Virus record (IMG/VR): IMGVR_UViG_3300018418_000105
Location: 1-27,379 of that record
Strand: one strand, 5' to 3'
Length of the DNA stretch: 27,379 nt
Source: a virus
The notes beneath the pieces were generated by a model. The model saw only the letters and a program-made list of their open reading frames with translations. It made no database searches and had not been told where the DNA came from. Positions 2 through 27,379 of the stretch are shown in pieces. Each line of letters opens with the position of its first letter. Within the stretch, counting starts at the first letter, position 1. A program made the translations under genes and the position numbers.

Positions 2-340
2 GTCACTTGGAGTTGTTCCCCAAAACTTAGTGTTAGCGGAGAACCTTGGGAAACTGCTATTAAGCCTAGTGTGGCTTATGAGTATACTTGTGTTGACGGT
101 AGTGACATTTATCTCAAGTTTGTTGTCGCTAGTCAAGATGATTTTGAAGAAGTTACAAGAGCTGTTCAAGCATATCGTGACGGAGGCGTCGAGTGTCCAG
201 TATATCTTATGCCGCTGGGCGGACGTTCGGAAGAGTATAATCTCAATGTTCAAGAAGTCGCAGAAGCGTGTATGGAAAGAGGATGGCGATTTACCCCAAG
301 ACTCCACATCTCCTTATTCGGAAATGCGTGGGGGACTTGA
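2..340 (+). CDS. queE: 7-carboxy-7-deazaguanine synthase QueE, 3' end only
   Basis: C-terminal part (112 residues) of a radical-SAM enzyme that converts 6-carboxy-tetrahydropterin to 7-carboxy-7-deazaguanine, a step towards preQ0. The frame is open to the window edge, so the start and the CxxxCxxC cluster motif lie outside. Visible features are a WSCSPKLSVSGE stretch near the left edge, a central DIYLKFVVAS strand, and the end ERGWRFTPRLHISLFGNAWG, which matches the typical QueE C-terminus (SPRLHI.LFGN.RG). Phages use QueE either for host tRNA queuosine or to make 7-deazaguanine bases in their own DNA; which applies here needs the neighbouring genes outside the window. Identification is from remembered family motifs. 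Confidence 0.88.
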   Translation, partial: VTWSCSPKLSVSGEPWETAIKPSVAYEYTCVDGSDIYLKFVVASQDDFEEVTRAVQAYRDGGVECPVYLMPLGGRSEEYNLNVQEVAEACMERGWRFTPRLHISLFGNAWGT

Positions 341-440: not shown

Positions 441-841
441 AACAGTTCTTTAAAAAAATAACAGGACTTGACAAGGAAGAAGCTCGTATTGCTGAAGAAA
501 AGGCACGAGTCGAAGAAGAATCTATGCAAGTTCTAAAGAAAAAAGATCCTAAGGCTTATGCTACTAAGCGTAAAGAGCCTTGGATAAGTGTACTAGATGT
601 AAAAGTAAACAAAGACAATGTACGCAATGGCTTTTTTGAAATGGACTGGAATGAATATTTTATTAAAGATCTTAAAAAAGCAGGCTACGGTGAAGACGGA
701 GACCTTGACGAACAAATTGTAGATCGTTGGTTCCGTGATATTGTGTATAATATGCTAGAAGAAGAAGGCATGGATACAGATCGAGGTGCCGGCTATATTA
801 ATGTTGTTCCAATTGACAAAGGTAAAAGTGAAGTATCATGA
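437..841 (+). CDS. conserved phage protein of unknown function (134 aa)
   Basis: The start at 437 is supported by a strong Shine-Dalgarno (AGGGAGG, 423-429) seven bases upstream. The N-terminal ~45 residues are lysine/glutamate-rich and probably helical or coiled (EEARIAEEKARVEEES). The C-terminal ~85 residues look globular, with motifs EPWISVLDVKV, NGFFEMDWNEYFI and IVDRWFRDIVYNMLEEEG. I recall similar proteins in T4-like cyanophages, always without an assigned role. It overlaps both neighbours by ATGA, so it is probably translationally coupled in the queE-exonuclease transcription unit. No catalytic motif seen. Confidence 0.75.
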   Translation: MKQFFKKITGLDKEEARIAEEKARVEEESMQVLKKKDPKAYATKRKEPWISVLDVKVNKDNVRNGFFEMDWNEYFIKDLKKAGYGEDGDLDEQIVDRWFRDIVYNMLEEEGMDTDRGAGYINVVPIDKGKSEVS

Positions 842-1107
842 GAACTAAAGAAGAAGTATATGATCTTATTTTCGATCTAAATGAAGATGCACACAATGCC
901 GCTTGGGATAGTTGGATTGCGGCAGACGAAGAAAATGATGAGGAAATGCGTGAAGAAGCAAGTGAAGAACAAGCAGGCTACTTCCGTGAAATGCTAGAGC
1001 AACATCCAGGACTACTAGAAGAAGCAAAACACTATGCTGAACAAGACGAAAGTTTTAATATGGATTGGGAAGCATGGTATCAGCCGTGGTTAGACGGAGA
1101 TGATTAA
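838..1107 (+). CDS. very acidic small protein of unknown function (89 aa)
   Basis: It starts in an ATGA overlap with the previous gene and ends in a TAATG overlap with the glycosylase gene. By hand count it has about 29 Asp/Glu against about 5 Lys/Arg, with several Trp residues (AAWDSWIAADEE, MDWEAWYQPWLDGDD). The acidic residues are spread along a probably helical chain rather than forming a simple tail. No family recognised. Such strongly acidic, small phage proteins are sometimes DNA mimics that block DNA-binding host enzymes, but nothing here proves that. Confidence 0.7.
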   Translation: MRTKEEVYDLIFDLNEDAHNAAWDSWIAADEENDEEMREEASEEQAGYFREMLEQHPGLLEEAKHYAEQDESFNMDWEAWYQPWLDGDD

Positions 1108-1514
1108 TGCGTGACGATCTAATGGTGCAACAACAAGTATCTACTGTATGGCAACATATGGTTAGTGTTATCTGCCTAAATCAAACTAATCGAAAGCAAG
1201 TTAAGCGTGTTCTTCCTGCTCTTTTTGTACTATGTCCTACACCAATACAACTACTTAATACAACATCTGAAGCAATTAAGAGTATTATACAACCGTTAGG
1301 AATGGTAAATGTGCGAGAAAAGCGTTTGCGTAAAATGAGTGAAGACTTCTTGACATGGGACGGAAACGATGCTACAATGTTATATGGAATTGGAAAATAC
1401 GGCAGTGATAGTTATCGATTATTTTACAAGAATGAGATACCTGAAGATGTTGGTGACCACGAATTAAAACGTTATATTGACGAGGAATTAAATGGCAACT
1501 TACATACTAGTTGA
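1107..1514 (+). CDS. MBD4-like HhH-GPD DNA glycosylase (135 aa)
   Basis: Predicted base-excision DNA glycosylase of the helix-hairpin-helix superfamily, closest by eye to the catalytic domain of vertebrate MBD4, which removes T or U from G:T and G:U mismatches. The match runs the whole length: a helix with ICLNQTNRK (residues 22-30; MBD4 IFLNRTSGK), IIQPLGMVNVREKRLRKMSE (60-79), the hairpin LYGIGKYGSDSYRLF (92-106; MBD4 has GIGKYGNDSYRIF), then GDHELKRYIDEEL (116-128), where D117 aligns with the MBD4 catalytic aspartate (human D560). No [4Fe-4S] cysteine cluster and no methyl-CpG-binding domain. TAATG start with CGGAG at 1095-1099. It overlaps the exonuclease gene by 23 bases. Substrate is inferred, not shown. 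Confidence 0.82.
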   Translation: MRDDLMVQQQVSTVWQHMVSVICLNQTNRKQVKRVLPALFVLCPTPIQLLNTTSEAIKSIIQPLGMVNVREKRLRKMSEDFLTWDGNDATMLYGIGKYGSDSYRLFYKNEIPEDVGDHELKRYIDEELNGNLHTS

Positions 1515-2474
1515 TACAGCAAATACTTTCTTTAGAGCACGACACGTAGTACGTGGCGACCTAGATACTAAAGTAGGTATGGCGTTACACATTACGCTTA
1601 ATAGTGTTAAGAAGGCTTGGACAGACTTTAATGCAGATCATGTTGTGTTCTGCTTAGAAGGACGTAGCTGGCGTAAAGACTATTACGAGCCGTACAAGCG
1701 TAACAGACAAGAAACTCGTGATGCAATGACTCCTACACAGCAAGAAGAAGATACTGTGTTTTGGAGATATTTGACGAATTTAAAGATTTTGTCAGTACAA
1801 AAACTAACTGTACAATGATCAGACATCCACAATTAGAAGCAGATGATCTAATTGCAGGATGGGTGCAAAGTCATCCTAACGATGATCATGTTATAATTAG
1901 TACTGACGGTGACTTTGCACAACTTATTGCTCCTAACGTAAAACAATACAATGGTGTTAGTAATACAACTATTACACACGAAGGTTACTTTACAGATAAA
2001 GGCGAACCTGTTATAGATAAAAAAACTAAAGAAGTAAAGCCTGCGCCCGATCCGCAATGGCTACTATTTGAAAAATGTATGCGAGGTGATACAAGTGACA
2101 ATGTTTTCTCTGCTTATCCAGGCGTTCGTAAGAAAGGTACAAAGAATAAAGTTGGCCTATTGGAAGCATATGACGATAAGTCCGCGAAAGGTTATAACTG
2201 GAATAATCTTATGCTACAGCGTTGGGTCGATCATAACGGTGTGGAACATCGTGTCTTAGATGATTATAATCGAAATGTTGTACTATGCGATTTATCTGCA
2301 CAACCTGCAGAAATTAAAGAGATAATTAATAACACTATTGCAGAAGTAGAACCTAAAGACATTACACAAGTTGGTATGCGTCTTATGAAGTTCTGTGCTA
2401 AATGGGATATGCAACGTATTGCAGACCAGGCAGCGAGTTTTGCAGAACCATTACAAGCGAGGTACCCTAAATGA
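1492..2474 (+). CDS. T4 RNase H/FEN-like 5'-3' exonuclease, interrupted by a frameshift
   Basis: Two overlapping frames (1492-1818 and 1764-2474) together give one 327-residue protein of normal length for the T4 RNase H family (T4 enzyme 305 aa), which removes RNA primers and flaps during lagging-strand synthesis. Acidic metal ligands of the PIN/FEN fold are present: D8 (ILVDTAN), E56 (LEGRSWRKDYYEPYKRNR region), EADDL (116-120), STDGD (D139, D141) and GDTSDN (D200, D203), followed by the GVRKKGTKNKVG helix-hairpin region. Frame 1 reads through W91 at 1762-1764; the homologous continuation EIFDEFKDFV then begins at 1764 in the -1 frame, as if one G were missing from a short G run. The cause may be a sequencing error, a real mutation or recoding. 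Shine-Dalgarno GAGGA at 1482-1486. Confidence 0.85.
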
Positions 2475-3997: not shown

Positions 3998-5083
3998 ATG
4001 GAAAATGTAGCAACTCGCACTGTAAGCCCGAACTCGGCAAAAAATAGCATTAAACATGCACTTAAGAAAAAACGTCCGATCTTCCTATGGGGTCCTCCAG
4101 GAATTGGTAAATCGGATATTGTTCACCAAATTGGTGAATACATGGAAGCATATGTAATTGACATTCGTTTGTCATTATGGGAACCTACTGACATTAAAGG
4201 TATTCCATATTACTCTGCAAACGATAACGCAATGGTATGGGCTGCTCCAGCAGAACTTCCAACTGCTGAAATGGCAACAAAGTATAAAAACATTATTTTG
4301 TTCTTAGACGAAATGAATTCGGCAGCGCCAGCAGTACAAGCGGCAGCATATCAGTTGATTCTTAACCGTAAGGTAGGACAATATGTACTACCAGACAATG
4401 TTCTTATTGTTGCGGCAGGTAACCGTGATGCTGATAAAGGTGTTACATATCGTATGCCGGCTCCGTTAGCTAACCGATTTGTTCACTTAGAACTTGCAGT
4501 TAACTTTGATGACTGGTTCCAGTGGGCTACTGAACATAGAATTCACAGAGATGTTGTAGGTTTCCTACAATTTAGTAAAAAAGATTTATACGATTTCGAT
4601 CCTAAGAGCCCAAGTCGTTCATTTGCAACGCCTCGTTCTTGGTCGTTTGTGTCAGAATTGCTAGAAGATGACCTAGACGAAAGCGCAACTACTGATCTTG
4701 TATCAGGTGCTATTGGCGAAGGTCTTGCAATTAAATTTATGGCACACCGAAAAGTAGCAAGCTCTATGCCTAACCCAACTGATATTTTGGAAGGTAAAAT
4801 TAAAGAGTTGAAACAGACAGAAATCAGTGCTATGTATTCCCTCACTGTTTCACTTTGCTACGAACTTAAAGAAGCATCAGATGCAAACGATAAAAAGTTT
4901 GACGACAAAGTTAACAACTTTTTACGATTTGCAATGGATAACTTCGAAACTGAATTGGTTGTAATGGGCATGAAACTTGCACTTACACAATATTCACTAC
5001 CAATCGATCCAGACGAAGTAGAATGTTTTGATGAATTCCACGAGCGTTTTGGCAAGTTCATTAAGGCTGCTCAACAGTCTTAA
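3998..5083 (+). CDS. MoxR-family AAA+ ATPase (361 aa)
   Basis: AAA+ ATPase of the MoxR/AAA_5 type. Walker A is GPPGIGKS (residues 32-39), Walker B LFLDEM (101-106), sensor 1 AAGNRD (N142), the likely arginine finger PLANRF (R160) and sensor 2 TPRSW (R213). The ~150-residue C-terminal region is helical and not recognised. MoxR proteins work with von Willebrand A-domain partners as chaperones that remodel or help mature protein complexes, and the gene at 5190 encodes such a partner. Start supported by GAGGG (3984-3988). It has its own sigma70-type promoter and a terminator after the stop. Similar ATPases occur in some marine T4-like phages; their substrate is unknown to me. Confidence 0.9.
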   Translation: MENVATRTVSPNSAKNSIKHALKKKRPIFLWGPPGIGKSDIVHQIGEYMEAYVIDIRLSLWEPTDIKGIPYYSANDNAMVWAAPAELPTAEMATKYKNIILFLDEMNSAAPAVQAAAYQLILNRKVGQYVLPDNVLIVAAGNRDADKGVTYRMPAPLANRFVHLELAVNFDDWFQWATEHRIHRDVVGFLQFSKKDLYDFDPKSPSRSFATPRSWSFVSELLEDDLDESATTDLVSGAIGEGLAIKFMAHRKVASSMPNPTDILEGKIKELKQTEISAMYSLTVSLCYELKEASDANDKKFDDKVNNFLRFAMDNFETELVVMGMKLALTQYSLPIDPDEVECFDEFHERFGKFIKAAQQS

Positions 5084-5096
5084 TCGGTATTGAGTT

Positions 5097-5126
5097 TGGA
5101 CGATCTCATCAAAATCGTCCATTTTT
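5097..5126 (+). terminator. Rho-independent terminator after the MoxR ATPase gene
   Basis: TGGACGAT (5097-5104) pairs with ATCGTCCA (5114-5121) around a 9-base loop, followed by five T residues. It separates the ATPase gene from the VWA gene although they form a functional pair. Confidence 0.75.
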
Positions 5127-5128
5127 AC

Positions 5129-5168
5129 TTGACTTTTCCTGTAAATACTGTATACTATTAGTATAGTA
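5129..5168 (+). promoter_or_regulatory. second sigma70-type promoter with the same -10 inverted repeat
   Basis: TTGACT (5129-5134), 16 bases, TATACT (5151-5156). The inverted repeat TACTAT (5153-5158) / ATAGTA (5163-5168) has the same arms, the same 4-base spacing and the same position relative to the -10 box as at 3921-3960. It lies 21 bases before the VWA gene start. Confidence 0.75.
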
Positions 5169-5189
5169 ACAAAATAGAGGACATAGCAT

Positions 5190-6491
5190 ATGAGCGTAGC
5201 GGGCACTAAACTTTGGCAACCAGATCCTAATATTACTCCTGAAGAACTTGAAGTAATGCGTGTTGATGTAATGGAACGTATTATTATTGCCCGAGTTGGC
5301 TTATTGTTACGTCATCCATTCTTTGGTAATATGGCAACTCGTTTACGTATTATGGCAGCAGATGATTGGTTACCTACTGCCGCAGTAGATGGTCGCAATT
5401 TATATTTTAATACACAATTCTTTAATGCAATGTCAAACAAAGAAATTGAGTTTGTTATTGCACACGAAATTCTACACTGCGTATTTGATCACTTAGGACG
5501 TCGAGGCGATAGAGATCCTATGTTATTTAATATTGCCGCAGATTATCTTGTAAACAATATTCTTGTAAGAGATAGAATTGGTGAGAAGCCTAAACTTGTT
5601 GATTGTTTCCAAGACTTTAAATATGATAAGTGGAGTGCTGAAGAAGTTTACGACGATTTATACAAAGAAGCAGAAAAGAATGGTAAAGAATTCTTAGAGC
5701 AACTAGGTGAGTTGTTAGACGAGCACTTAGAAAGTGAAGGCGATGATGGCCAAACTTCTGACAACGGAGAAGAAAAAGATAGTAACGGTAATGCTGTAAG
5801 TAAGAAAAAACCAAAGTACTCAAAAGAACAGCTTCAAAAGATCAAAGACGAAATTAAAGAAGGCATGATGCAGGCAGCACAAGCCGCAGGTGCAGGCAAT
5901 GTTCCAGGTGAGGTTGCTCGTATGATTAAAGAGTTAACTGAACCTAAAATGAATTGGAGAGAAATTCTTCAACAACAGATTCAAAGTACAATTAAAAACG
6001 ATTTTACTTTCCAGCGTCCTTCACGCAAAGCGTGGCACACTGGTGCAATACTTCCAGGTCAGAATTTTGACGAAACTATTGATATTGCTATTGCACTTGA
6101 TATGTCAGGTTCAATTGGTAATGCACAGGCACAAGACTTCTTAGGTGAAGTTAAAGGTATTATGGATCAATACAAAGACTATAATATTAAAATTTGGTGT
6201 TTTGATACTCAAGTTTACAATGAACACGATTATAGTGCAGACGGTGGCGAAGACTTACTAGACTATGAAATTATGGGCGGTGGTGGCACCGACTTTATGG
6301 CGAACTGGGAATACATGAAAGAACAAAATTATGTTCCTAAAAAATTCTTAATGTTCACAGATGGATATGCCTGGGATAGTTGGGGCGATGAAGATTATTG
6401 TGATACTGTATTCTTAATTCATTCACACCATGATAAAAACATACAGGCGCCTTTTGGTACTACTGTACACTACGAGGAAGCAAGTGCATAA
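5190..6491 (+). CDS. putative metallopeptidase-like plus VWA-like domain protein (433 aa)
   Basis: Two-domain protein of the DUF2201 type. The N-terminal half has HEILHCVFDH (residues 92-101), an HExxH zinc-binding signature with a further His, inside a peptidase-like helix pair. A charged linker (~155-230) is rich in Asp, Glu and Lys (SEGDDGQTSDNGEEKDSNGN). The C-terminal half (~295-433) is a von Willebrand A-like fold with metal-site motif DMSGS (304-308), GGGGTDF (363-369) and FTDG (389-392). In bacteria such proteins pair with MoxR ATPases, as here with the gene at 3998. Start chosen at ATG 5190 with AGAGGA (5176-5181). Whether it is proteolytically active or a pure adaptor cannot be told. 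Confidence 0.87.
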   Translation: MSVAGTKLWQPDPNITPEELEVMRVDVMERIIIARVGLLLRHPFFGNMATRLRIMAADDWLPTAAVDGRNLYFNTQFFNAMSNKEIEFVIAHEILHCVFDHLGRRGDRDPMLFNIAADYLVNNILVRDRIGEKPKLVDCFQDFKYDKWSAEEVYDDLYKEAEKNGKEFLEQLGELLDEHLESEGDDGQTSDNGEEKDSNGNAVSKKKPKYSKEQLQKIKDEIKEGMMQAAQAAGAGNVPGEVARMIKELTEPKMNWREILQQQIQSTIKNDFTFQRPSRKAWHTGAILPGQNFDETIDIAIALDMSGSIGNAQAQDFLGEVKGIMDQYKDYNIKIWCFDTQVYNEHDYSADGGEDLLDYEIMGGGGTDFMANWEYMKEQNYVPKKFLMFTDGYAWDSWGDEDYCDTVFLIHSHHDKNIQAPFGTTVHYEEASA

Positions 6492-17431: not shown

Positions 17432-17439
17432 TATTTATT
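17432..17439 (-). promoter_or_regulatory. possible late promoter box AATAAATA
   Basis: On the - strand AATAAATA overlaps the stop codon of the giant gene, 18 bases before the ATG at 17413. This is close for a promoter and one base off consensus, so it may be chance in A+T-rich DNA. Confidence 0.3.
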
Positions 17440-20400
17440 TAGGTAACTCAGTTGTTGCTCCACGTATGAATTCTGCAATAGAATTTTTTGCATATCTTAA
17501 TTGTTCTCCTGGGTTTTGCCACAATTTGCCTATTTTTCTTACAATAAGCACCCTACTATTTGCTTCAGGAGAGTTTAACAATGTAATAATTGCAACATTG
17601 TCGTCAGTAATAGTAAGTTCAAATTCCGGAGGTAATATAGTATCGCCCTCCGGACTGTCTTGGTTTATAAAGTCTTGTATTAGATTGCCGTCGGAATCTA
17701 CTTTTTGGAATTGATAAGCACTAATAGCATTCTTACGTAATCTCTTACCACTTACAAAAACTTCAAATTCGTCTACTCCCTTTGTAGGAATCCAATCTAA
17801 AACTATTTGTGTTGACTCGTCCTCTAACTTAATTAGTGTAACCATTTCGTCAGTATAAGGAATAGACTCAGTTATTCCCTGATCCATTATTTCAGTACCT
17901 GCAATATACGAAAGTTTTGGACTTGTTCCGAGTGTGCCTCTTCTTAACTGGCTTACTGTATTTCCGTCAACTTGGAAATATTCAATTCTTTCACCATCTA
18001 TGAATAATACACCCGGAATATTAAGTTCTGTACTAGGTAAAGTCAATCCTGTTGCATCGTCTAGCTCAATAACTTTATCAGTTATACCTAATGGCTGTGC
18101 TAAAAGATATACTTTATCTTGGTTTAGACGCTTGTAGTGTGTCCTATTCAGCATATCTTTAAACATTCTATAACCAAACTTAGCGTTAGTCTTAGATCCT
18201 GCAAAGTGTATAACCTGTATTCTATCATCCGGTTCTACTTTTCTTATAATTTGAACATACTCGTCCATCTTTGAAAGTCTATAATCAACATTAGGTGTAA
18301 GCAGTTCACCGTTTAGTGTAACCCACAAGTACGCTGTACTTATCGCAGGTTGTCTTAGTTTTATTAGGCCATTATTTAACCTTCTAAAGTCATAATAATC
18401 ATCAGTTCCAGCAACTAAGTTTCCTTGTGCTGCATTAACTCTTGTTTCAATCTGCAAATCTTGGATATCATGTTTGCTAAATTTATAAATTACAATTTCT
18501 GCGTCTTGAGCCGGTATATCATTGAGTACTATGTTATCACCTGCTTCAATTAATGTAACACTAAGCATGTTATTAGATATTGCACCGCTTTCGGTTCCTT
18601 CTACTGGTATGCTTGGATCGTCATCAAATTGCTCTACTAACTCAGGATATGGTCCAATTAATTCTAATCTATTATTATTATAAGTTTTTACTGTAGCAGA
18701 AATAATTGTACTATCGCCTGTACCTATTTCAACTGTTTCGCCAGGCACAAACGACCCGTTTACATTTGCTAAAATTACTTCTGTATTTTGAGAGAATGAA
18801 TATTCACTAGTGTAAGGAACAAATATTTCTAAATCGTCGCCTATTTGCCCTACGTTGTCAAATAATACAACCTGAGTATTTGCAAAGTCCCAACGATAAT
18901 CTGTTAATAATCCTAGTTTTTCACCGTTAATATACACATCTACTTGGTCTGGACTCAATGTACTAGGTCCAAACTGCGCACTATCTAATGGATACTCTCT
19001 TCCTGATTCAATAAACCAATGCTGTGTATATCCTGGATACAATATTTTGTTATCAACTCTAACAACAATATTATGACTTAATGGCAATTTACTAAACGGA
19101 GCAGGATCTGTATTAAATATTACAGTACTTCCGTCACCAATATGTTTATCTATTGTAATTTCACTATAAGATGTTATGCCAGAAACAGCATTTGTTGCGT
19201 CAAATAACGAATAGTGTATAAATGAATTAGCTGGCGGTGCAGTTACAAATCTTAAGCCTAGCATACCGTTATCTGTTTCATAGATACTAGCACTAGCATT
19301 TACACCGTCAATTGTTATATACGAAGATAAATTCTCTCTATAAACTACATTAGTAATAAACTCTAACTTCTCGCCTGTTCCAGTAAAGGCCGAAATATCA
19401 ATTAATGCTTCGCCGTTGTCTCCGATTGACGAAATGTTAATTCTGTCTCCTACTGTTAACGGATTATTCATAACAACTTTATTTTCAACAAAGTTAATTT
19501 CGTAATCCTCGTCTACTTCTAGTATAGATCCGTTTACTTTAACAATAACTGCTTGTTTATTATGCGGTAATGTTTCTAAGAAAAATTCTTGATTAATATT
19601 TGCAGTTGCAGTATAATTTCTTGTTGTAATTAGACTGCTTCCATCTCCTGCACGATCGTAAACTTTCATATCCAATGTGTCAAGTAATTGTCCTGGAACT
19701 AATTCTTCCGGTCCTGCCGATGTAGTTGGAGTAATAAAGCCATCGCCGTCAATTGTAATGTCTGCTGCATCTAACCCTGTAGCAGTACCATATGCAAGAT
19801 TTCCACCTTCGATCAAACTATCAAAACCAGAAGCAGGTAAGAAACTACCGTCTGATGATGCTTTTCTAATTACTACTACTTGATCTTTAGGTGCTTCAAA
19901 TGCTGTATCAGTATAGTATTCTTCAAATTCTTCAACATTTTCTATTACAACAAAATATCTAGGATTACCATCGTCGTCAATGTCAGTTACATAACTTGAT
20001 TCTTCAGTAGTAACTGTTTTCATTATTGCGTTTGGATTTCCTAAAGCAACTATAGTAACGCCGTCTTCTGCAAGATAAGTTCTAGTACTACCGTCATAGT
20101 TAACATCGTCAACTCGTATACCATTAATGTAAACATTATACTGTTCACCTGCTTCTAACGGCTTGCTTAGTTGAAATCTCTTAGTGCTACCGTCAGTATA
20201 AAATGTTTCATCTTCAAAGTTTTCGTCATACGTATCCCAGGCTGATGTATACCAAGGTTGAGAATCAAATCCTAAATCAGAACCAAATTCAAAAGACCTT
20301 ACTTCTACTCCACCGTAGTCTACACCAGACATTAACTGTCCTAAATCCTTACCATACTGACCTGTTTCAGGATTGTATAACGTATTAATTCTATCTGCTG

Positions 20401-23400
20401 CATTTAATAAATTATAGCTCTTGTTATATTCAACACGTATAACTGTTCCTACAGGTTGAGCCTGTGTTAGTGTAATATAACCCAATTGTCTAGTGTAAGT
20501 TTTAGTACCTTGTTTCTGCTTTATAGTTTCATTATTATAAGAATATTCACTACTTAGTGCTTCAGTCCCGTCAAAGAAAACTTTAATGTTTGCTCTAGTT
20601 AAATCCATTGGCCATTTTAAAGTTAGTTTAAGTTCAATGCCGCCACTTGTGAATTCTTCAACTTCGGATAAGTTTAAAAACTCGTAGTTAGGCGAAGTTC
20701 TATCAAACTTTTGCGTAATACTATAATGTTTAACTTTATTATTACCTAGTATAACAGAAAGTCTAGGCTGTAATCCGCCATCTTCTTGTGTTCCAACTAT
20801 TTCTACAGAAGGAGGACTAGTGTATCCAGATCCTGGATCAGTGATAACTATTGACTTAACACTTCCGCTACCAATAAATGCTTTTGCCTTTGCTCCGGTT
20901 CCGCCACCGCCTGATATAATTACATTAGGAACTTGAGTAAATCCGGTTCCGCCATCTTGTATTTCTATTGCTTCAACTTCAAATGTAAAATTATCAAGCC
21001 AATGTTTTGCTGGATATAATGTTTCATCAAAATTTATTCCAATAAGTACTCCGTCTTGAATTGCAACTTCAGGAGCAACAATCTTGTTTAATTCCTTATC
21101 ATAGAACGGAGCAAGATCAAAATCAGTGGTAACACTCTGAGTATTATCAATTGTATCGTACGATGATAGATATTCACGTATTTTAGCTTTATAAGGTTTA
21201 ACTTCGTTTACATAATCTTCGTAACTTTCTAAGTTATCATTTTGGAATGTAGTACGTTGTTCTAATGTTCCAACATTATGTTTTGCTTTAATAAAGCTGG
21301 TTTTAAATGCCCAGTCTACATAATTCTGTTCTGCAAACACATAGCGTAAACTTGCAAAGAATAGTTGATTATATTCCTCCGCTAACTCATCTACAAAAAT
21401 ATCATCTCTAATTGTTTCAATAATCTTTCTTAATTCGACTGCATTATCATCTTCGAGATATAATTTAGATAAAAATTCAATTGTGCCGCCTTCACGACCA
21501 ACTGTTCTATAACCTGTACTAAGATCAGGAGAATCTAGATTAACAATTTTTTCAAGTAATATCCATCCACCGGAACCTACATTTGAGATTTTAATAATAT
21601 CGCCTAAATCATCATTTAACCCGCTTAGTTGATAATAATCATCTATTAAAAAGTCTATGCCTGTTAACGCACTGTAACCAGTTAAATACCAATCTTTATA
21701 TTTCCAAAACTCAGATACATCATAGTATTGTTTATTTGTAATAGACCAAACTCTTGTATCTGGATTCCAACCGTAAATTGTCCAACCTCCGTTATTAGTG
21801 CTATCTGCACGTACAAGAACACTTAACGGTCTTACAGTAAGTGTAAGACTATCGGTGTAGTTTGTGCCGCCATTAATAATTTCAACACTTGTAATAATAC
21901 CTAAATTATTTAATATCGGTTTTAGTTCTAAGTTTTCACCTGTACCATTAATTTTAATAGTAGGTGCTATTCTATATCCTCGGCCACCATTAACTATAGT
22001 TACACTAGTAATTACACCATCTTCGATTACTGGCTGTAATATAGCTGTTGCAGCACGTACTGTACCAACAAACTCTAATTCTTGCTCAGTATCGATAGCA
22101 GTATCATAATGCCCGGAAATAAAAGTCGGAACAGGATCTTTTTCAAATAATTTTGTTGTGTCAAAATTATCTAATATAAGTTGATCTTTAAGTACTCTGT
22201 TAACTCTTTCTACATATTGTTTTAATGCTTCTTGTCTATTTACAAACCAGCTTTGTCTCGGTCTATTAAGAGATCCGTATTTTTGTTTTACACTTAACGT
22301 TGGATCAGGCACAGGTCTATGATATTTGTCAGAACCTATTAAACTATCAATCCATTTATCTTCAATTACACTCTTAGGCTTACTTGTACTCAGACCTTCC
22401 GAAATAATTTGATATTCATTATGAATATTATTTTCTTGATTATCGATTGTCCAATAACGGAAATTAATTGCAACATCTGAGTCTGAAAGACTCTTATTAC
22501 AATTATATAAAATAAATCTATCATTACCAAGAATAGTAACAAATTTAAGTCGCTGACCTGCTGGATCTCTAATAATATTTGCAACATCATATGAACTACG
22601 GCGTCTACTTTCTATATCAGGAGTAACTCGCTTGTTCTTGACCCAGAAATAATATTTCTTAACAAATCCCTGACTTATAGGATCGTATACATCTTTTTCA
22701 ACATATTTAGAAGTTCCGTACTTAGAAGTTCCGCTTATTCCTCTTGCTGAGCCAAGGTTTGTATCTGCACGTTGATCCCAAACATCAGGAGCTATATTAC
22801 TTTCCACCCACTCATAAACATCAATAGATGACCCAGTAGCCAACGATCCCCAAACACTTTGAGAATATATAACACTGCCTTGATTATAATCTACATACTT
22901 GACTGTGCTTAAATCCCACCATAGTTCTCCTACTTGCTTTTCGCCCCAGGTAGTATATTTTGTTTTCTCTGTTTGATTTCCTACATTATAAAATGCTGGA
23001 TCAAAATATGTCTTGTAGGAAAGTTCTTGCTCAGCAAGGCCTGAAATTTTTCCTGCAACAGGATCGATTATATCAAGTCTTGAAAGTAATAAATTTGTTT
23101 TAGTGTTGTATATAAACGATCCTCTAAATTTGTCAACTTCGGGTTGATCAATCGGGCTTCTTATTACGTTCCATATTTTTTGATCTTGTTGTCTATGATA
23201 AACTGCGACTTTACCAGGGCCGCTGCCATTATTAATTGTTGGTAACCCAACATAGATTTTATTATTTTTAACAAGTACATCCTTGCCAAAATTAACAACA
23301 CTAAAATCAGTATATTCTAAACGTTGACCGTAAACTAACGAATTGTTTATATTTTCGTAGATATAAACAACACCGCTGTCTACTATACGTTTTGCAAATT

Positions 23401-26400
23401 TAGTAAACCCTTTATCAAAAATAGTTTCAACTGGTGATAACGGACTATTAGGATCATTAACATATCTGCCAAGGGTATTACTAGTATCTTGGAACCTATC
23501 ATAGGTTGTGTCTAATATAATATCACCTCTTGCACTTGTTACTACTAACTGATTTCCGTCAAAACCAAGATTTATTCCAAAACCTTCTGTCTGTTCCTTA
23601 TTAGGACTATTAAGTATTTGACTTTGCTGGTATGTACCGTTTACATTTTTATAGACATACACTCTACCTTGATACGGTTGATCAGCGTCTGTGTTAGGTG
23701 CTCCTACAGCAATAATATTTCCGTCATCAGAAACTACAACAGACTCTCCATAACTTCTTGCTTCCAAAGGAGCATCAAATTCTTGTATAATTTCAAAGTG
23801 AGAATTTTTAAGTCTGTATATGACTAGTTTATTTCTGTCGCTGTATTCTGCAATCGTTGCTAATATATTTCCAGAATCACTAATATCAAATGTTCTGCCA
23901 TATGCTGTAGTTGTTAAGTCAGCAATACTTTCAATGTCACTAGGTATAACTAACCCTGTGGTATTAGGCAAGTATCCTATAAAGTCAACATGGTCACCTA
24001 AGACTTTCCATTTATTGCTATTAAATTCTTCAGCTTGTATATTTGTAAGTGCTCTATAAAATACATTGTTGTATACTACTATTTGATCTTGATAATAATC
24101 TGAAACATTACTGTAAATACCTTTAAAGTTAGTATCTCTACCAACTGTCCAATTGTAAGTTTTTCCGTAAATGTCAGTACCATTAACAACAAAATACAAT
24201 CTTCCTCTACCTGGATTTGTAGTAATATCGTTAGTATGCGTTTCTTTGCTGTTTATTACTAACTTATAAAAATCTCCAGATTGAATAATTTTTAAAGAAG
24301 ATGCTAGTTCTCTACCTTCTTCTCTATTAGGAAGAATAAATCCGTTAATAAAATTATATCTGTCAAGTACATCGTCTTTTTCATATACGAAAAATGCACC
24401 TTCTCTTACAACTTCACTAGCTGTCCTATTTGTATTAATAGGAATATTATCAACTTCTTCCCAGTCATTATTTGAATTACTAGGAACCAATGGTGTTCTT
24501 GGAAGTCCAGGTTTGAATTCTTCTATCCAAGTTAAATATTCAATGCCAGATATAAATTCTGTTTCGTAGATACCTATTTCATCTGAAACATTTGCATTTA
24601 ATGGCAAAATAAATCTCTCAGGCAATGGAAGTTGTTCTGTATGTTGGAAAACTGCTATTTTACCTATATCAGAATCTGCAAGCTGTCGTGATTCTGTAGT
24701 TCCTATTCTTCTTAATTGTCCGTTACCTTCATCCTTATTAAGATACATTGAAGTAGGAGCCAAACCATCAATATATCTAGAACCAAAGCTAAAATCACCT
24801 GTAACATTCTTTACATATATTCTTGCTTTATCGAGATCTCTTTGATAAAGCACAACTTCTGCTGTTGCCCCGGTAGTTCCTTCACGAACAATATCCCCCG
24901 GAACTAAATCTATCTCAGCAAAAATATCATAGTCAATATATCCATCCCATAAATCTACCGGTACTTGAACCTTGTTAATTATATTGTAGGGATTATCGCC
25001 AAATCCTTTTGCAGATAAATCAGGTAATGTACCAGATGTACCAGGAATGTCGTTTAGCCAAACTCCAATATAAGGAGATGGCGATTGAGGATCATTAAAC
25101 GCCGAAGTTGCTTTATCTGAGACATTTTTAGGAAGTCTAACTATCCATCTATTATCCAAAAATGTCTGTGTTCCGGCACCAGCAATACCTCTAGATTGGT
25201 GACTTAACACTCTAACTATATCTGTTTCTTTTTGGAAGGGCTTGTCAACACCTGCTAGAATTTCTACAGGTATTTCATATCTAGTATCTATAGAGTTTTT
25301 ATAAGGTAATATGTCTACACTTTCGTGCCATGTTGCATCTGGATTTGAAAAAGTATTAGGATCAAAATTATTTTTTATATCCTTAATAACAAGTCCGTGC
25401 CCATTATCTGTTATTATACCATTTGGATTGTAATTAAATCCTGTTGCAATTTCCCAATAGCCGCCTAAAATAGAGCTTCGGTCTACTGGCTCGTGTAAAG
25501 GTCTTGTATATTCTCCAATTAAGAATGTATCATTAATATATAAAGTTCCTGTTTCTTCAAAAATACCATTTTTATCGTTTGCGTATACAACAAGACGACC
25601 TAGTTCATTTTTTACATAAACAACAGTAGCATTACCTGTTGGTGTTGTTACTGTATCTCCTGCAGAGACACTCGGAATGTTTAATGGATCTACGACATAA
25701 AATACTTCTTCGACTTTTCTTCTAATAGTATGAACATTAGTTTCAAAGAAAGTTTTATCAATACCTGGCAATTTATTATTAAACGGCTTATTAATTTTTC
25801 TTAGAAATCCGTTAAAATCTCCGCCTAGAGGATTTGCTAACTCTCCAGAACCTAATCTAGGACCTATAGGCTCTCCACTAAACCCTATATTAGGATTAAC
25901 AGGAAGTGTTAAATCTTCATCGTAGTATATCTCTAAATAATCATTGCCTAAAACTTTTACAAAGAATTTAACATTTTCTAAACCCTTAACACCTTCTTGT
26001 TCTAAAGTATCAAAAGGAATATTAGGATCACTATTATCAAACTGATCTACAAGAATTGTAATATTATCGTTAGGAACATCAGTAATGATTATTTCATCGT
26101 TATCCTCTAAGTTATGAGCTGTATCAGTAATTAGTTTCATCGGAGATGCTGATAAATCTATACCAACAATCGAAACTTCTGAAATTGGATTATAGTTATG
26201 AGAAATGTTATCCCATCCTAAATATAATCTATCTCCTATATTACTTCCTTCATAAGCATCTATAGGAGCTCTTACAAGAATATGATCTGTAGTCGTATCT
26301 ATTAGAGGTACATCACCTGTTGCTAATAGTTTAATATCTGTATAATCGCCATACAATTTGTATAGTTCAGAACGCCACCTACTTGCACTATCAAATGTTC

Positions 26401-27379
26401 CAAAGACAACATTGTCTGTCCTTGCTTTTACTGTTCTTCTTGCTTTATAAAGGCTGTTATTATATTGAACTATAGAACCTCTAGTATAATTTGAACTTAA
26501 ATTAAAGTTATCTTTATATGCACTTTTTACATATGTTGAATTAGGTGCTCCTACAATTAAATATTTTCCATCTGGAGACATAGTAACAGCTTCGCCAAAT
26601 TTACTACTTCCTGCTGAAAAGTTTTCTGTAGGTTGAATTGTTTGTACTAACGAAAGAGTTCCATTTACAGTGCTTCCGTCATCTTCTCGTTTATAAACAT
26701 AAACTTTTCCGTCTCCGTCTAACGGTGAACCAACAGCAACAAATGTTCCATCATCTTGCGATGTAATACTTTCACCATAACTTTGATCTGTAATAGTTGG
26801 ATTAACTAAGTCTTCGTCGAAGTTATACGATCCTTCTGCTTTAATTACATTCCATTTTCCAGTTAATGTATTATCTATATTATCAATCCACAGTAACTCT
26901 CCAGGATCAATATTATTTTCGGCATACTGGTTAGAATCTGTTAGAGTTGCTACACGATTAGAAACAAATTTAGTTATTGTACCTGACAATCCAGTTTCTT
27001 CTTGTGTTAAAGATGCTTCACCTAGTTCTATAGTTACTTGATTAAGTTCACTCGAGACTACTTTATAAAATCCGTCTATATCTACAACATCTATAATACC
27101 TATAATATCACCTTCTACAAAGTTTGATAACTTGTCTAGTGTAAGTATTGCTGTAGTGCCAAGTGGCGTTGCTGTTGTAATTCTAAATTGTGTACCTATG
27201 TGCTTATAAACATTCCATTCTTGGCCTTCAAATGTAACCCAAATATAATCTCCTTGTTTTACTTCTTGCAAATCAAGTGTTAAAATGTCATCTTTATTTT
27301 TTACAGTCCATTGTACGTCACTTTCTCTGACATATCCTGCTGTCTTAAATGCACTATCTGCTCTATATTTGGTAGGGAA
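17435..27379 (-). CDS. giant virion structural protein, N-terminus outside the window (>3,314 aa)
   Basis: The frame is open to the right edge; the first candidate start inside (TTG at 27271) is not needed, since the 36 codons before it read GYVRESDVQWTVKNK-type coding sequence. Parts in order (residue 1 = edge): EGQEWNVYKHIGTQF-type beta domain (~37-120). FG-GAP-like repeats at ~199-290, then a ~870-residue insertion flanked by RGSIVQYNNSLYKARR and YQDQIVVYNNVFYRAL (carbohydrate-binding-module-like), then five more FG-GAP-like repeats (~1157-1447). A Trp/Tyr-rich segment (WGEKQVGELWWDLSTVKYVD). Two GG.GY..PP.V.I stretches (~1785-1850 and ~2135-2195). About eight beta-sandwich repeats with V.VNG..L...DY (~2247-3275), and a GERIEYF...QLRRGTLGT segment (~3120-3150). 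Probably a tail or baseplate-associated fibre; exact role unknown. Confidence 0.85.
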   Translation of the reverse strand, partial: FPTKYRADSAFKTAGYVRESDVQWTVKNKDDILTLDLQEVKQGDYIWVTFEGQEWNVYKHIGTQFRITTATPLGTTAILTLDKLSNFVEGDIIGIIDVVDIDGFYKVVSSELNQVTIELGEASLTQEETGLSGTITKFVSNRVATLTDSNQYAENNIDPGELLWIDNIDNTLTGKWNVIKAEGSYNFDEDLVNPTITDQSYGESITSQDDGTFVAVGSPLDGDGKVYVYKREDDGSTVNGTLSLVQTIQPTENFSAGSSKFGEAVTMSPDGKYLIVGAPNSTYVKSAYKDNFNLSSNYTRGSIVQYNNSLYKARRTVKARTDNVVFGTFDSASRWRSELYKLYGDYTDIKLLATGDVPLIDTTTDHILVRAPIDAYEGSNIGDRLYLGWDNISHNYNPISEVSIVGIDLSASPMKLITDTAHNLEDNDEIIITDVPNDNITILVDQFDNSDPNIPFDTLEQEGVKGLENVKFFVKVLGNDYLEIYYDEDLTLPVNPNIGFSGEPIGPRLGSGELANPLGGDFNGFLRKINKPFNNKLPGIDKTFFETNVHTIRRKVEEVFYVVDPLNIPSVSAGDTVTTPTGNATVVYVKNELGRLVVYANDKNGIFEETGTLYINDTFLIGEYTRPLHEPVDRSSILGGYWEIATGFNYNPNGIITDNGHGLVIKDIKNNFDPNTFSNPDATWHESVDILPYKNSIDTRYEIPVEILAGVDKPFQKETDIVRVLSHQSRGIAGAGTQTFLDNRWIVRLPKNVSDKATSAFNDPQSPSPYIGVWLNDIPGTSGTLPDLSAKGFGDNPYNIINKVQVPVDLWDGYIDYDIFAEIDLVPGDIVREGTTGATAEVVLYQRDLDKARIYVKNVTGDFSFGSRYIDGLAPTSMYLNKDEGNGQLRRIGTTESRQLADSDIGKIAVFQHTEQLPLPERFILPLNANVSDEIGIYETEFISGIEYLTWIEEFKPGLPRTPLVPSNSNNDWEEVDNIPINTNRTASEVVREGAFFVYEKDDVLDRYNFINGFILPNREEGRELASSLKIIQSGDFYKLVINSKETHTNDITTNPGRGRLYFVVNGTDIYGKTYNWTVGRDTNFKGIYSNVSDYYQDQIVVYNNVFYRALTNIQAEEFNSNKWKVLGDHVDFIGYLPNTTGLVIPSDIESIADLTTTAYGRTFDISDSGNILATIAEYSDRNKLVIYRLKNSHFEIIQEFDAPLEARSYGESVVVSDDGNIIAVGAPNTDADQPYQGRVYVYKNVNGTYQQSQILNSPNKEQTEGFGINLGFDGNQLVVTSARGDIILDTTYDRFQDTSNTLGRYVNDPNSPLSPVETIFDKGFTKFAKRIVDSGVVYIYENINNSLVYGQRLEYTDFSVVNFGKDVLVKNNKIYVGLPTINNGSGPGKVAVYHRQQDQKIWNVIRSPIDQPEVDKFRGSFIYNTKTNLLLSRLDIIDPVAGKISGLAEQELSYKTYFDPAFYNVGNQTEKTKYTTWGEKQVGELWWDLSTVKYVDYNQGSVIYSQSVWGSLATGSSIDVYEWVESNIAPDVWDQRADTNLGSARGISGTSKYGTSKYVEKDVYDPISQGFVKKYYFWVKNKRVTPDIESRRRSSYDVANIIRDPAGQRLKFVTILGNDRFILYNCNKSLSDSDVAINFRYWTIDNQENNIHNEYQIISEGLSTSKPKSVIEDKWIDSLIGSDKYHRPVPDPTLSVKQKYGSLNRPRQSWFVNRQEALKQYVERVNRVLKDQLILDNFDTTKLFEKDPVPTFISGHYDTAIDTEQELEFVGTVRAATAILQPVIEDGVITSVTIVNGGRGYRIAPTIKINGTGENLELKPILNNLGIITSVEIINGGTNYTDSLTLTVRPLSVLVRADSTNNGGWTIYGWNPDTRVWSITNKQYYDVSEFWKYKDWYLTGYSALTGIDFLIDDYYQLSGLNDDLGDIIKISNVGSGGWILLEKIVNLDSPDLSTGYRTVGREGGTIEFLSKLYLEDDNAVELRKIIETIRDDIFVDELAEEYNQLFFASLRYVFAEQNYVDWAFKTSFIKAKHNVGTLEQRTTFQNDNLESYEDYVNEVKPYKAKIREYLSSYDTIDNTQSVTTDFDLAPFYDKELNKIVAPEVAIQDGVLIGINFDETLYPAKHWLDNFTFEVEAIEIQDGGTGFTQVPNVIISGGGGTGAKAKAFIGSGSVKSIVITDPGSGYTSPPSVEIVGTQEDGGLQPRLSVILGNNKVKHYSITQKFDRTSPNYEFLNLSEVEEFTSGGIELKLTLKWPMDLTRANIKVFFDGTEALSSEYSYNNETIKQKQGTKTYTRQLGYITLTQAQPVGTVIRVEYNKSYNLLNAADRINTLYNPETGQYGKDLGQLMSGVDYGGVEVRSFEFGSDLGFDSQPWYTSAWDTYDENFEDETFYTDGSTKRFQLSKPLEAGEQYNVYINGIRVDDVNYDGSTRTYLAEDGVTIVALGNPNAIMKTVTTEESSYVTDIDDDGNPRYFVVIENVEEFEEYYTDTAFEAPKDQVVVIRKASSDGSFLPASGFDSLIEGGNLAYGTATGLDAADITIDGDGFITPTTSAGPEELVPGQLLDTLDMKVYDRAGDGSSLITTRNYTATANINQEFFLETLPHNKQAVIVKVNGSILEVDEDYEINFVENKVVMNNPLTVGDRINISSIGDNGEALIDISAFTGTGEKLEFITNVVYRENLSSYITIDGVNASASIYETDNGMLGLRFVTAPPANSFIHYSLFDATNAVSGITSYSEITIDKHIGDGSTVIFNTDPAPFSKLPLSHNIVVRVDNKILYPGYTQHWFIESGREYPLDSAQFGPSTLSPDQVDVYINGEKLGLLTDYRWDFANTQVVLFDNVGQIGDDLEIFVPYTSEYSFSQNTEVILANVNGSFVPGETVEIGTGDSTIISATVKTYNNNRLELIGPYPELVEQFDDDPSIPVEGTESGAISNNMLSVTLIEAGDNIVLNDIPAQDAEIVIYKFSKHDIQDLQIETRVNAAQGNLVAGTDDYYDFRRLNNGLIKLRQPAISTAYLWVTLNGELLTPNVDYRLSKMDEYVQIIRKVEPDDRIQVIHFAGSKTNAKFGYRMFKDMLNRTHYKRLNQDKVYLLAQPLGITDKVIELDDATGLTLPSTELNIPGVLFIDGERIEYFQVDGNTVSQLRRGTLGTSPKLSYIAGTEIMDQGITESIPYTDEMVTLIKLEDESTQIVLDWIPTKGVDEFEVFVSGKRLRKNAISAYQFQKVDSDGNLIQDFINQDSPEGDTILPPEFELTITDDNVAIITLLNSPEANSRVLIVRKIGKLWQNPGEQLRYAKNSIAEFIRGATTELPK

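Follow-up and report, generated by a model that had tools for sequence, protein, structure and literature searches.

The locus analyzed here raises the question of whether a 135-amino acid (aa) protein encoded by a virus is a DNA glycosylase of the MBD4 type and, if so, which base it removes and from whose DNA. The window, that is, the whole stretch of DNA that was analyzed, comprises the entire 27,379-base virus record IMGVR_UViG_3300018418_000105 (GC content 0.36). A preliminary description recognized in it a phage-encoded, stand-alone MBD4-like mismatch glycosylase located next to an exonuclease gene and queE. The gene and its surroundings are as follows:

About 2..340, + strand: QueE-like gene (phrog_2076, E = 4.6e-20), C-terminal fragment, truncated where the record begins
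437-841, preceding the glycosylase gene: ORF resembling a virion protein (phrog_13349)
838..1107, + strand: 89-aa ORF directly upstream of the glycosylase gene, without a family match in Pfam or PHROGs
1107..1514, + strand: gene of an MBD4-type stand-alone HhH-GPD DNA glycosylase, 135 aa, with an ATG start (from the ORF, Pfam, structure, and alignment)
1492..2474, + strand: 5'-3' exonuclease/flap-endonuclease-like gene (PF02739, phrog_107), with a 23-nt overlap with the glycosylase gene

The start codon of the glycosylase gene overlaps the stop codon of the upstream ORF (TAATG). Both neighbors named previously are indeed present, but queE only as the C-terminal fragment, and the exonuclease gene is frameshifted: compared to all six aligned relatives, in which this gene is intact, one nucleotide is missing near position 1762, so that the coding sequence is divided between the frames 1492-1818 and 1761-2474. 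A sequencing error and a real mutation cannot be told apart as the source of this deletion. Elsewhere in the window, a MoxR-type AAA ATPase, with the nearest phage match (51%) in PA5oct-like Pseudomonas jumbo phages, is followed, within 3998-6491, by a protein that PHROGs names HNH endonuclease (phrog_1314) but whose sequence, on inspection by eye, resembles a zinc-protease/VWA-type protein. A single ORF of 3278 aa occupies positions 17435-27271 of the minus strand and probably encodes a structural or fibre protein of very large size.

The Pfam scan of the window protein detected the HhH-GPD family (PF00730; E = 9.3e-9, 36 bits, the cut-off being 26.2) along with a weak, sub-threshold match to DHDPS, and no match to the UDG superfamily (PF03167). 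The PF00730 scores of relatives are lower, with 21.7 bits, below the cut-off, for the copy at locus L111 and no match for the copy at locus L112, and the PHROGs search with the window protein produced nothing better than E = 0.077. Among the solved structures, MBD4 glycosylase domains account for 15 of the 18 distinct sequences found by phmmer at E up to 1, the best match being to MBD4 at E = 1.6e-14 over residues 12-125; the others are two endonuclease III entries near 3e-5 and 2abk at 0.45. A profile built from 54 relatives strengthens the MBD4 match to 8.5e-20, compared to 1.2e-6 for endonuclease III and 5.6e-5 for the archaeal enzyme 1kea. When the full ORF is considered, it matches the glycosylase domain only.

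The predicted structure points in the same direction. The alignment of the 54 relatives was used as the AlphaFold2 input, and five models were made, which do not all agree (pLDDT from 92.2 down to 65.4); the best one has a mean pLDDT of 92.2 and a pTM of 0.87. Foldseek placed 16 MBD4 entries on top, followed by 1kea and endonuclease III, and VIA-align gave Z scores of 17.9-18.6 for the 16 MBD4 entries, 14.5 for endonuclease III 2abk, and 13.8 for 1kea. Human MBD4 (6vjw) superimposes with the model at Z 18.6 and an rmsd of 1.9 Å over 130 residues, with about 31-32% identity. Thus, the match to the MBD4 catalytic domain that had been made by eye is borne out by sequence, profile, and structure comparison alike, and the best fold match is a glycosylase (MBD4), above both endonuclease III and the MIG-type 1kea. 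The assignment to the HhH-GPD glycosylase class is very likely correct. The E-values, the fold, the dN/dS ratios, and the several hundred relatives rule out chance or artefact, and an Nth- or MutY-like enzyme is ruled out by the ranking of the folds, the tyrosine in place of the lysine, and the absence of the Fe-S cysteines.

The residues expected to perform the chemistry were examined in an alignment of 185 distinct sequences (including that of the window) with human MBD4, E. coli Nth, and MutY. The relevant positions in the window are:

1125..1130, + strand: V7-Q8, at the place of MBD4 V448-Q449, with VQ in 171 of the 174 marine-clade rows (roles according to the available text of PMC12073362)
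1182..1184, + strand: Q26, aligned with R468, the arginine finger of MBD4
1386..1415, + strand: GIGKYGSDSY hairpin (residues 94-103), with Y98 at MBD4 Y540 and at the column of the catalytic Lys of E. coli Nth
1455..1457, + strand: D117, the catalytic-type Asp, aligned to MBD4 D560

All the motifs reported initially, namely, LNxT (L24-N25-Q26-T27), the hairpin, and D117 within DHELKRY, are in place, and the catalytic-type Asp of this stand-alone, phage-encoded MBD4-type glycosylase is in register, the D117 geometry having been taken from the alignment rather than from distances in the coordinates. Aspartate occupies position 117 in 183 of the 185 sequences (2 gaps) and tyrosine position 98 in 184 (1 gap), a column that contains Lys in Nth and Ser in MutY; N25 is present in 185/185, Q8 in 179/185, and V7 in 171/185. 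Hence the equivalents of the thymine-reading V448, Q449, and Y540 of MBD4 and of its catalytic D560 are all accounted for, with the register of V7-Q8 inferred from the structure alignment (residue 3 to 444, 4 to 445) because the sequence matches start at residue 11 or 12. In the three non-VQ rows among the 174 of the marine clade (those outside the Stenotrophomonas-phage query group), the alignment may be off by one residue. None of the 185 sequences contains four or more cysteines after the Asp, compared to five each in Nth and MutY. As described in the available text of PMC8307549, the lyase lysine is replaced in monofunctional members of the superfamily, MBD4 among them. Given the tyrosine at the position of the Nth lyase lysine and the lack of Fe-S cysteines, a monofunctional glycosylase is therefore to be expected; these residues indicate neither lyase activity nor an Fe-S cluster.

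This protein belongs to a large family of marine phages. In IMG/VR, the window protein retrieved at least 588 stretches encoding a relative, 80 of which were kept, and scans with three other members yielded 199, 50, and 13 (partly on the same contigs; 80, 50, and 13 kept). Matches were found in 9 of 50,697 phage records, namely, S-TIM54 at 61% identity and eight others at 23-34%, several of them duplicates of one phage. The family is under purifying selection: comparison of the window gene with 20 of the 80 kept loci, those that are full-length and gap-free, gives dN/dS of 0.037-0.126, and although these ratios are rough because dS exceeds 1 in most pairs and several are near saturation, nonsynonymous change is clearly restrained. 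In a FastTree phylogeny (52 rows; 113 columns in which both the window protein and MBD4 have residues; a single MBD4; rooted with Nth and MutY), human MBD4 and the marine phage clade form a group (support 0.979) that excludes the Stenotrophomonas-phage sequences, which, given the sparse sampling and the short alignment, is a hint at most. Marine phages thus commonly encode a very small stand-alone glycosylase of the MBD4 type; in S-TIM54, the only close isolate identified, it is annotated as a hypothetical protein. HhH-GPD proteins have been noted in phages before, an example from the accessible text of PMC5336643 being the 280-aa gp35 of Streptomyces phage Sf3; on an MBD4-type phage glycosylase, we found no publication in a literature search exclusive of most subscription papers.

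The conservation of the pocket does not extend to the guanine-sensing arginine finger of MBD4. The R468 position is occupied by Leu in 95, Gln in 75, Cys in 14, and Met in 1 of the 185 sequences, and by Arg in none. According to the available text of PMC12073362, R468 of human MBD4 senses the opposite guanine, the R468Q and R468L substitutions abolish or nearly abolish the activity, and uracil opposite guanine is among the substrates; Cys and Met at the finger are not among the mutants quoted from that source. Arg468 and Leu508 are described as the intercalating residues of MBD4 (PMC5406665, available text). Accordingly, 170 of the 185 sequences carry the very change, to Gln or Leu, that disables the human enzyme. 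Because the finger column contains Gln in both Nth and MutY, Gln is normal in the superfamily, and by itself does not exclude sensing of the opposite base. The K562 position, a 5' phosphate contact in MBD4, is changed as well, with Glu in 173 sequences, Lys in 9, all within the Stenotrophomonas-phage group, Gln in 1, and 2 gaps, so that DNA binding differs from that of MBD4. Thus, judging from these alignments, an MBD4-type pocket and chemistry appear to be kept, and MBD4-type specificity is in doubt: with the arginine finger replaced in 185/185 sequences, T:G specificity is doubtful, and the MBD4-like G:T specificity inferred in the preliminary description is not supported, given the Gln in place of R468 in the window protein itself and the reported loss of nearly all or all activity in R468Q and R468L (PMC12073362, available text).

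Our main reading, for which we consider the chances of being right and of being wrong about equal, is that of a monofunctional MBD4-type glycosylase that carries out uracil-directed base excision for phage DNA. The enzyme lacks the mismatch-sensing part of MBD4 and therefore probably removes damaged pyrimidines, such as uracil, in a somewhat different manner. From the computed fold, residue conservation, and selection, we infer the catalysis, the uracil preference, the repair of the phage's own DNA, and the downstream steps. The pocket would take in a flipped pyrimidine-2,4-dione, be it uracil, thymine, or a 5-substituted uracil, to be read by V7-Q8 and Y98, and a water molecule activated by D117 would hydrolyze the glycosidic bond, leaving an abasic site. 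The main substrate would be uracil from deaminated cytosine in phage DNA, more likely than a T:G mismatch because the guanine-sensing arginine finger is replaced. The abasic site would then be passed to a host AP endonuclease, with the phage 5'-3' exonuclease perhaps used for its long-patch repair. The family-wide replacement of the finger offers a natural test of the finger's function, namely, whether an MBD4-type pocket without it becomes a uracil enzyme.

The gene content around these glycosylases was assessed in 16 gene-carrying records (14 IMG/VR records, S-TIM54, and Stenotrophomonas phage AXL_1), none of the virus records being rated at least 90% complete and those from IMG/VR being fragments or of unknown completeness. 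No member of the UDG family, of the AP endonuclease families AP_endonuc_2 (PF01261) and Exo_endo_phos (PF03372), or of the trimeric-type dUTPases was detected in any of the 16 records by family searches that were positive in 9-13 of 14 control genomes. The thymidylate synthase family (PF00303) is represented in 4 of the 16 records and a C5-methyltransferase in one, S-TIM54. With no AP endonuclease in these records, the downstream steps would have to come from elsewhere. As a point in favor of the uracil reading, the absence of UDG is weak evidence because the records are incomplete and phages are mostly devoid of UDG anyway: E. coli Ung matches only 100 of the 50,697 phage records, most of them from Flavobacterium, Bacteroides, Listeria, or unnamed sources. 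If the enzyme is active, these phages supply the initial step of base excision repair themselves, even though UDG was not found in the records searched.

It is unlikely, albeit conceivable, that the protein is a true MBD4-like mismatch enzyme that removes thymine (and uracil) paired with G, the guanine being sensed by a different residue. MBD4 is the nearest relative in both fold and sequence, the base pocket is conserved, and MutY, which is specific for the opposite base, likewise has Gln at the finger column. However, T:G mismatches usually arise by deamination at sites modified by a cytosine-C5 methyltransferase, and such an enzyme is missing in 15 of the 16 records. The complete lack of Arg at the finger position also counts against a mismatch enzyme, considering that Gln or Leu there nearly or fully inactivates human MBD4 (PMC12073362, available text).

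The genomic neighborhoods differ between clades. In the clade of the window (81 loci, 80 kept and the window itself), the exonuclease gene lies directly downstream of the glycosylase gene in 52 loci, 58-67 nt downstream in 7, and 2.7-4.9 kb away in 15, and is not found within the fetched stretch in the remaining 7; QueE is present in 68 of these loci and FolE in 57, although the loci are not independent events because several are near-identical. In the next largest clade, that of L112, FolE, QueE, and this exonuclease are absent from the 3-kb flanks of all 80 loci, but in 75 of them a QueD-like gene is located roughly 1 kb downstream (the L112 copy of which matches Pfam PTPS at 8.4e-15). The module of glycosylase, exonuclease, and queE suggested earlier therefore finds partial support, from the 52 adjacent exonuclease genes of one clade, and none in the other; as a fixed arrangement it is weakened, both neighbors being clade-specific. 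Given the differing neighborhoods and the 7-deazaguanine genes in two clades, the gene thus appears to travel, loosely linked to 7-deazaguanine genes. In one of the phage records inspected (L099-L101, G002, about 3-39 kb), inspection by eye suggested many successive proteins bearing radical-SAM-like CxxxCxxC motifs.

Few copies were found in cellular genomes. A two-motif scan of 84,980 prokaryote genomes found five loci, and in four of these (L109, L110, L112, and L113), the flanks match phage proteins. The fifth (L111:4001-4390), in a Ca. Actinomarina genome without a match to UDG, is a phage-type copy, 64% identical, that stands alone among cellular genes, with a nucleoside deoxyribosyltransferase, CbiM, EamA, and a hydrolase as neighbors. 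Within the Actinomarina order, a full-length match is present in 1 of 42 genomes, and a second genome has a partial one (E = 4.9e-8). In profile searches of 398, 396, and 292 genomes from three phyla, the full-length matches listed (187-200 bits) all come from three genomes that had already been found, and the other listed matches reach at most 61.4 bits and mostly cover positions 11-97 in longer frames; we take the latter for Nth/MutY-like proteins. A bacterial origin was considered and rejected, no further full-length high-scoring copy being among the matches listed for the three phyla. The plasmid search retrieved four records with weak partial matches.

It is quite improbable that the enzyme attacks DNA other than that of its own phage, or a modified base (5-hydroxymethyluracil, for example) in the DNA of the host or of a competing phage, in the way Brig1 acts against T4. 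Movement of the gene between differing phage neighborhoods and the single copy among cellular genes in the Actinomarina single-cell genome would fit such a role, and the bacterial glycosylase Brig1 is reported to act against modified phage DNA (PMC11078745, available text); however, Brig1 belongs to the UDG superfamily rather than to the HhH class, no gene for thymine hypermodification was identified, and annotation or scoring identifies the PF00303 proteins in 4 of the 16 records as thymidylate synthases.

The proximity of FolE, QueE, and QueD-like genes raises the very slight chance that the enzyme is adapted to DNA or DNA pools containing 7-deazaguanine and removes U or T opposite the modified G, in which case the guanine-contacting arginine would have been lost on account of the substituent at position 7 of the partner base; the biosynthesis genes may, however, do no more than supply tRNA queuosine. 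Finally, a DNA-binding protein with little or no catalytic activity, its fold kept for another task, is an idea to which the loss of the finger and K562 contacts lends some weight, but it is highly implausible inasmuch as hardly any variation is seen at D117, at Y98, and in the hairpin among the 185 sequences, which a non-catalytic role would not require.

The uracil-directed glycosylase that we favor is best placed by comparison with the known systems. It shares with MBD4 (human 6vjw, mouse 1ngn and 4ew0) the fold, the GIGKYG(N/S)DSY hairpin, the equivalents of Tyr540 and Asp560, the VQ before the first core helix, and the lack of an Fe-S cluster, and differs in being phage-encoded, in having no methyl-CpG-binding domain, and in the replacement of the finger R468 by Leu, Gln, Cys, or Met and, in nearly all phage sequences, of K562 by Glu. 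With endonuclease III (E. coli Nth), it has in common the HhH-GPD fold, the catalytic Asp, and the Gln at the finger column, but the catalytic Lys is replaced by Tyr, the Fe-S cysteines are absent, and the similarity is weaker in every comparison. The archaeal T:G glycosylase 1kea (MIG type; 217 residues) is also an HhH-GPD enzyme and acts on deaminated bases, but is less similar (Z 13.8, profile E = 5.6e-5) and is not the closest fold.

Among phage proteins, UYE97365.1 of cyanophage S-TIM54, annotated as a hypothetical protein, belongs to the same family (61% identity over residues 1-124) but resides in a different neighborhood, in a genome that also encodes a C5-methyltransferase and two thymidylate synthases; the genes for the C5-methyltransferase and the ThyA-type and ThyX enzymes are found alongside that of the glycosylase in OP053362.1, at 142150-147480 and 167021-167692. 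The ENDO3c protein of Stenotrophomonas/Xanthomonas phages (AXL1_65 of vB_SmaS-AXL_1) is of the same HhH type, with the Tyr and the Asp, but is only about 25% identical, belongs to a group in which 9 of the 11 members carry Lys at the position of K562, and is encoded next to thymidylate synthase and dCMP deaminase genes. Phage pyrimidine-dimer glycosylase, the other base excision glycosylase of marine phages compared, has been reported in S-CREM1, S-CREM2, and CRP-810 via other domain models (PMC9964418, PMC10665884, and PMC11288001); by the descriptions in the available text of those papers, it is a different type of enzyme, so that identity with the S-CREM1-type protein was rejected. The phage enzyme is thus a variant of the MBD4-type glycosylases rather than MBD4 proper.
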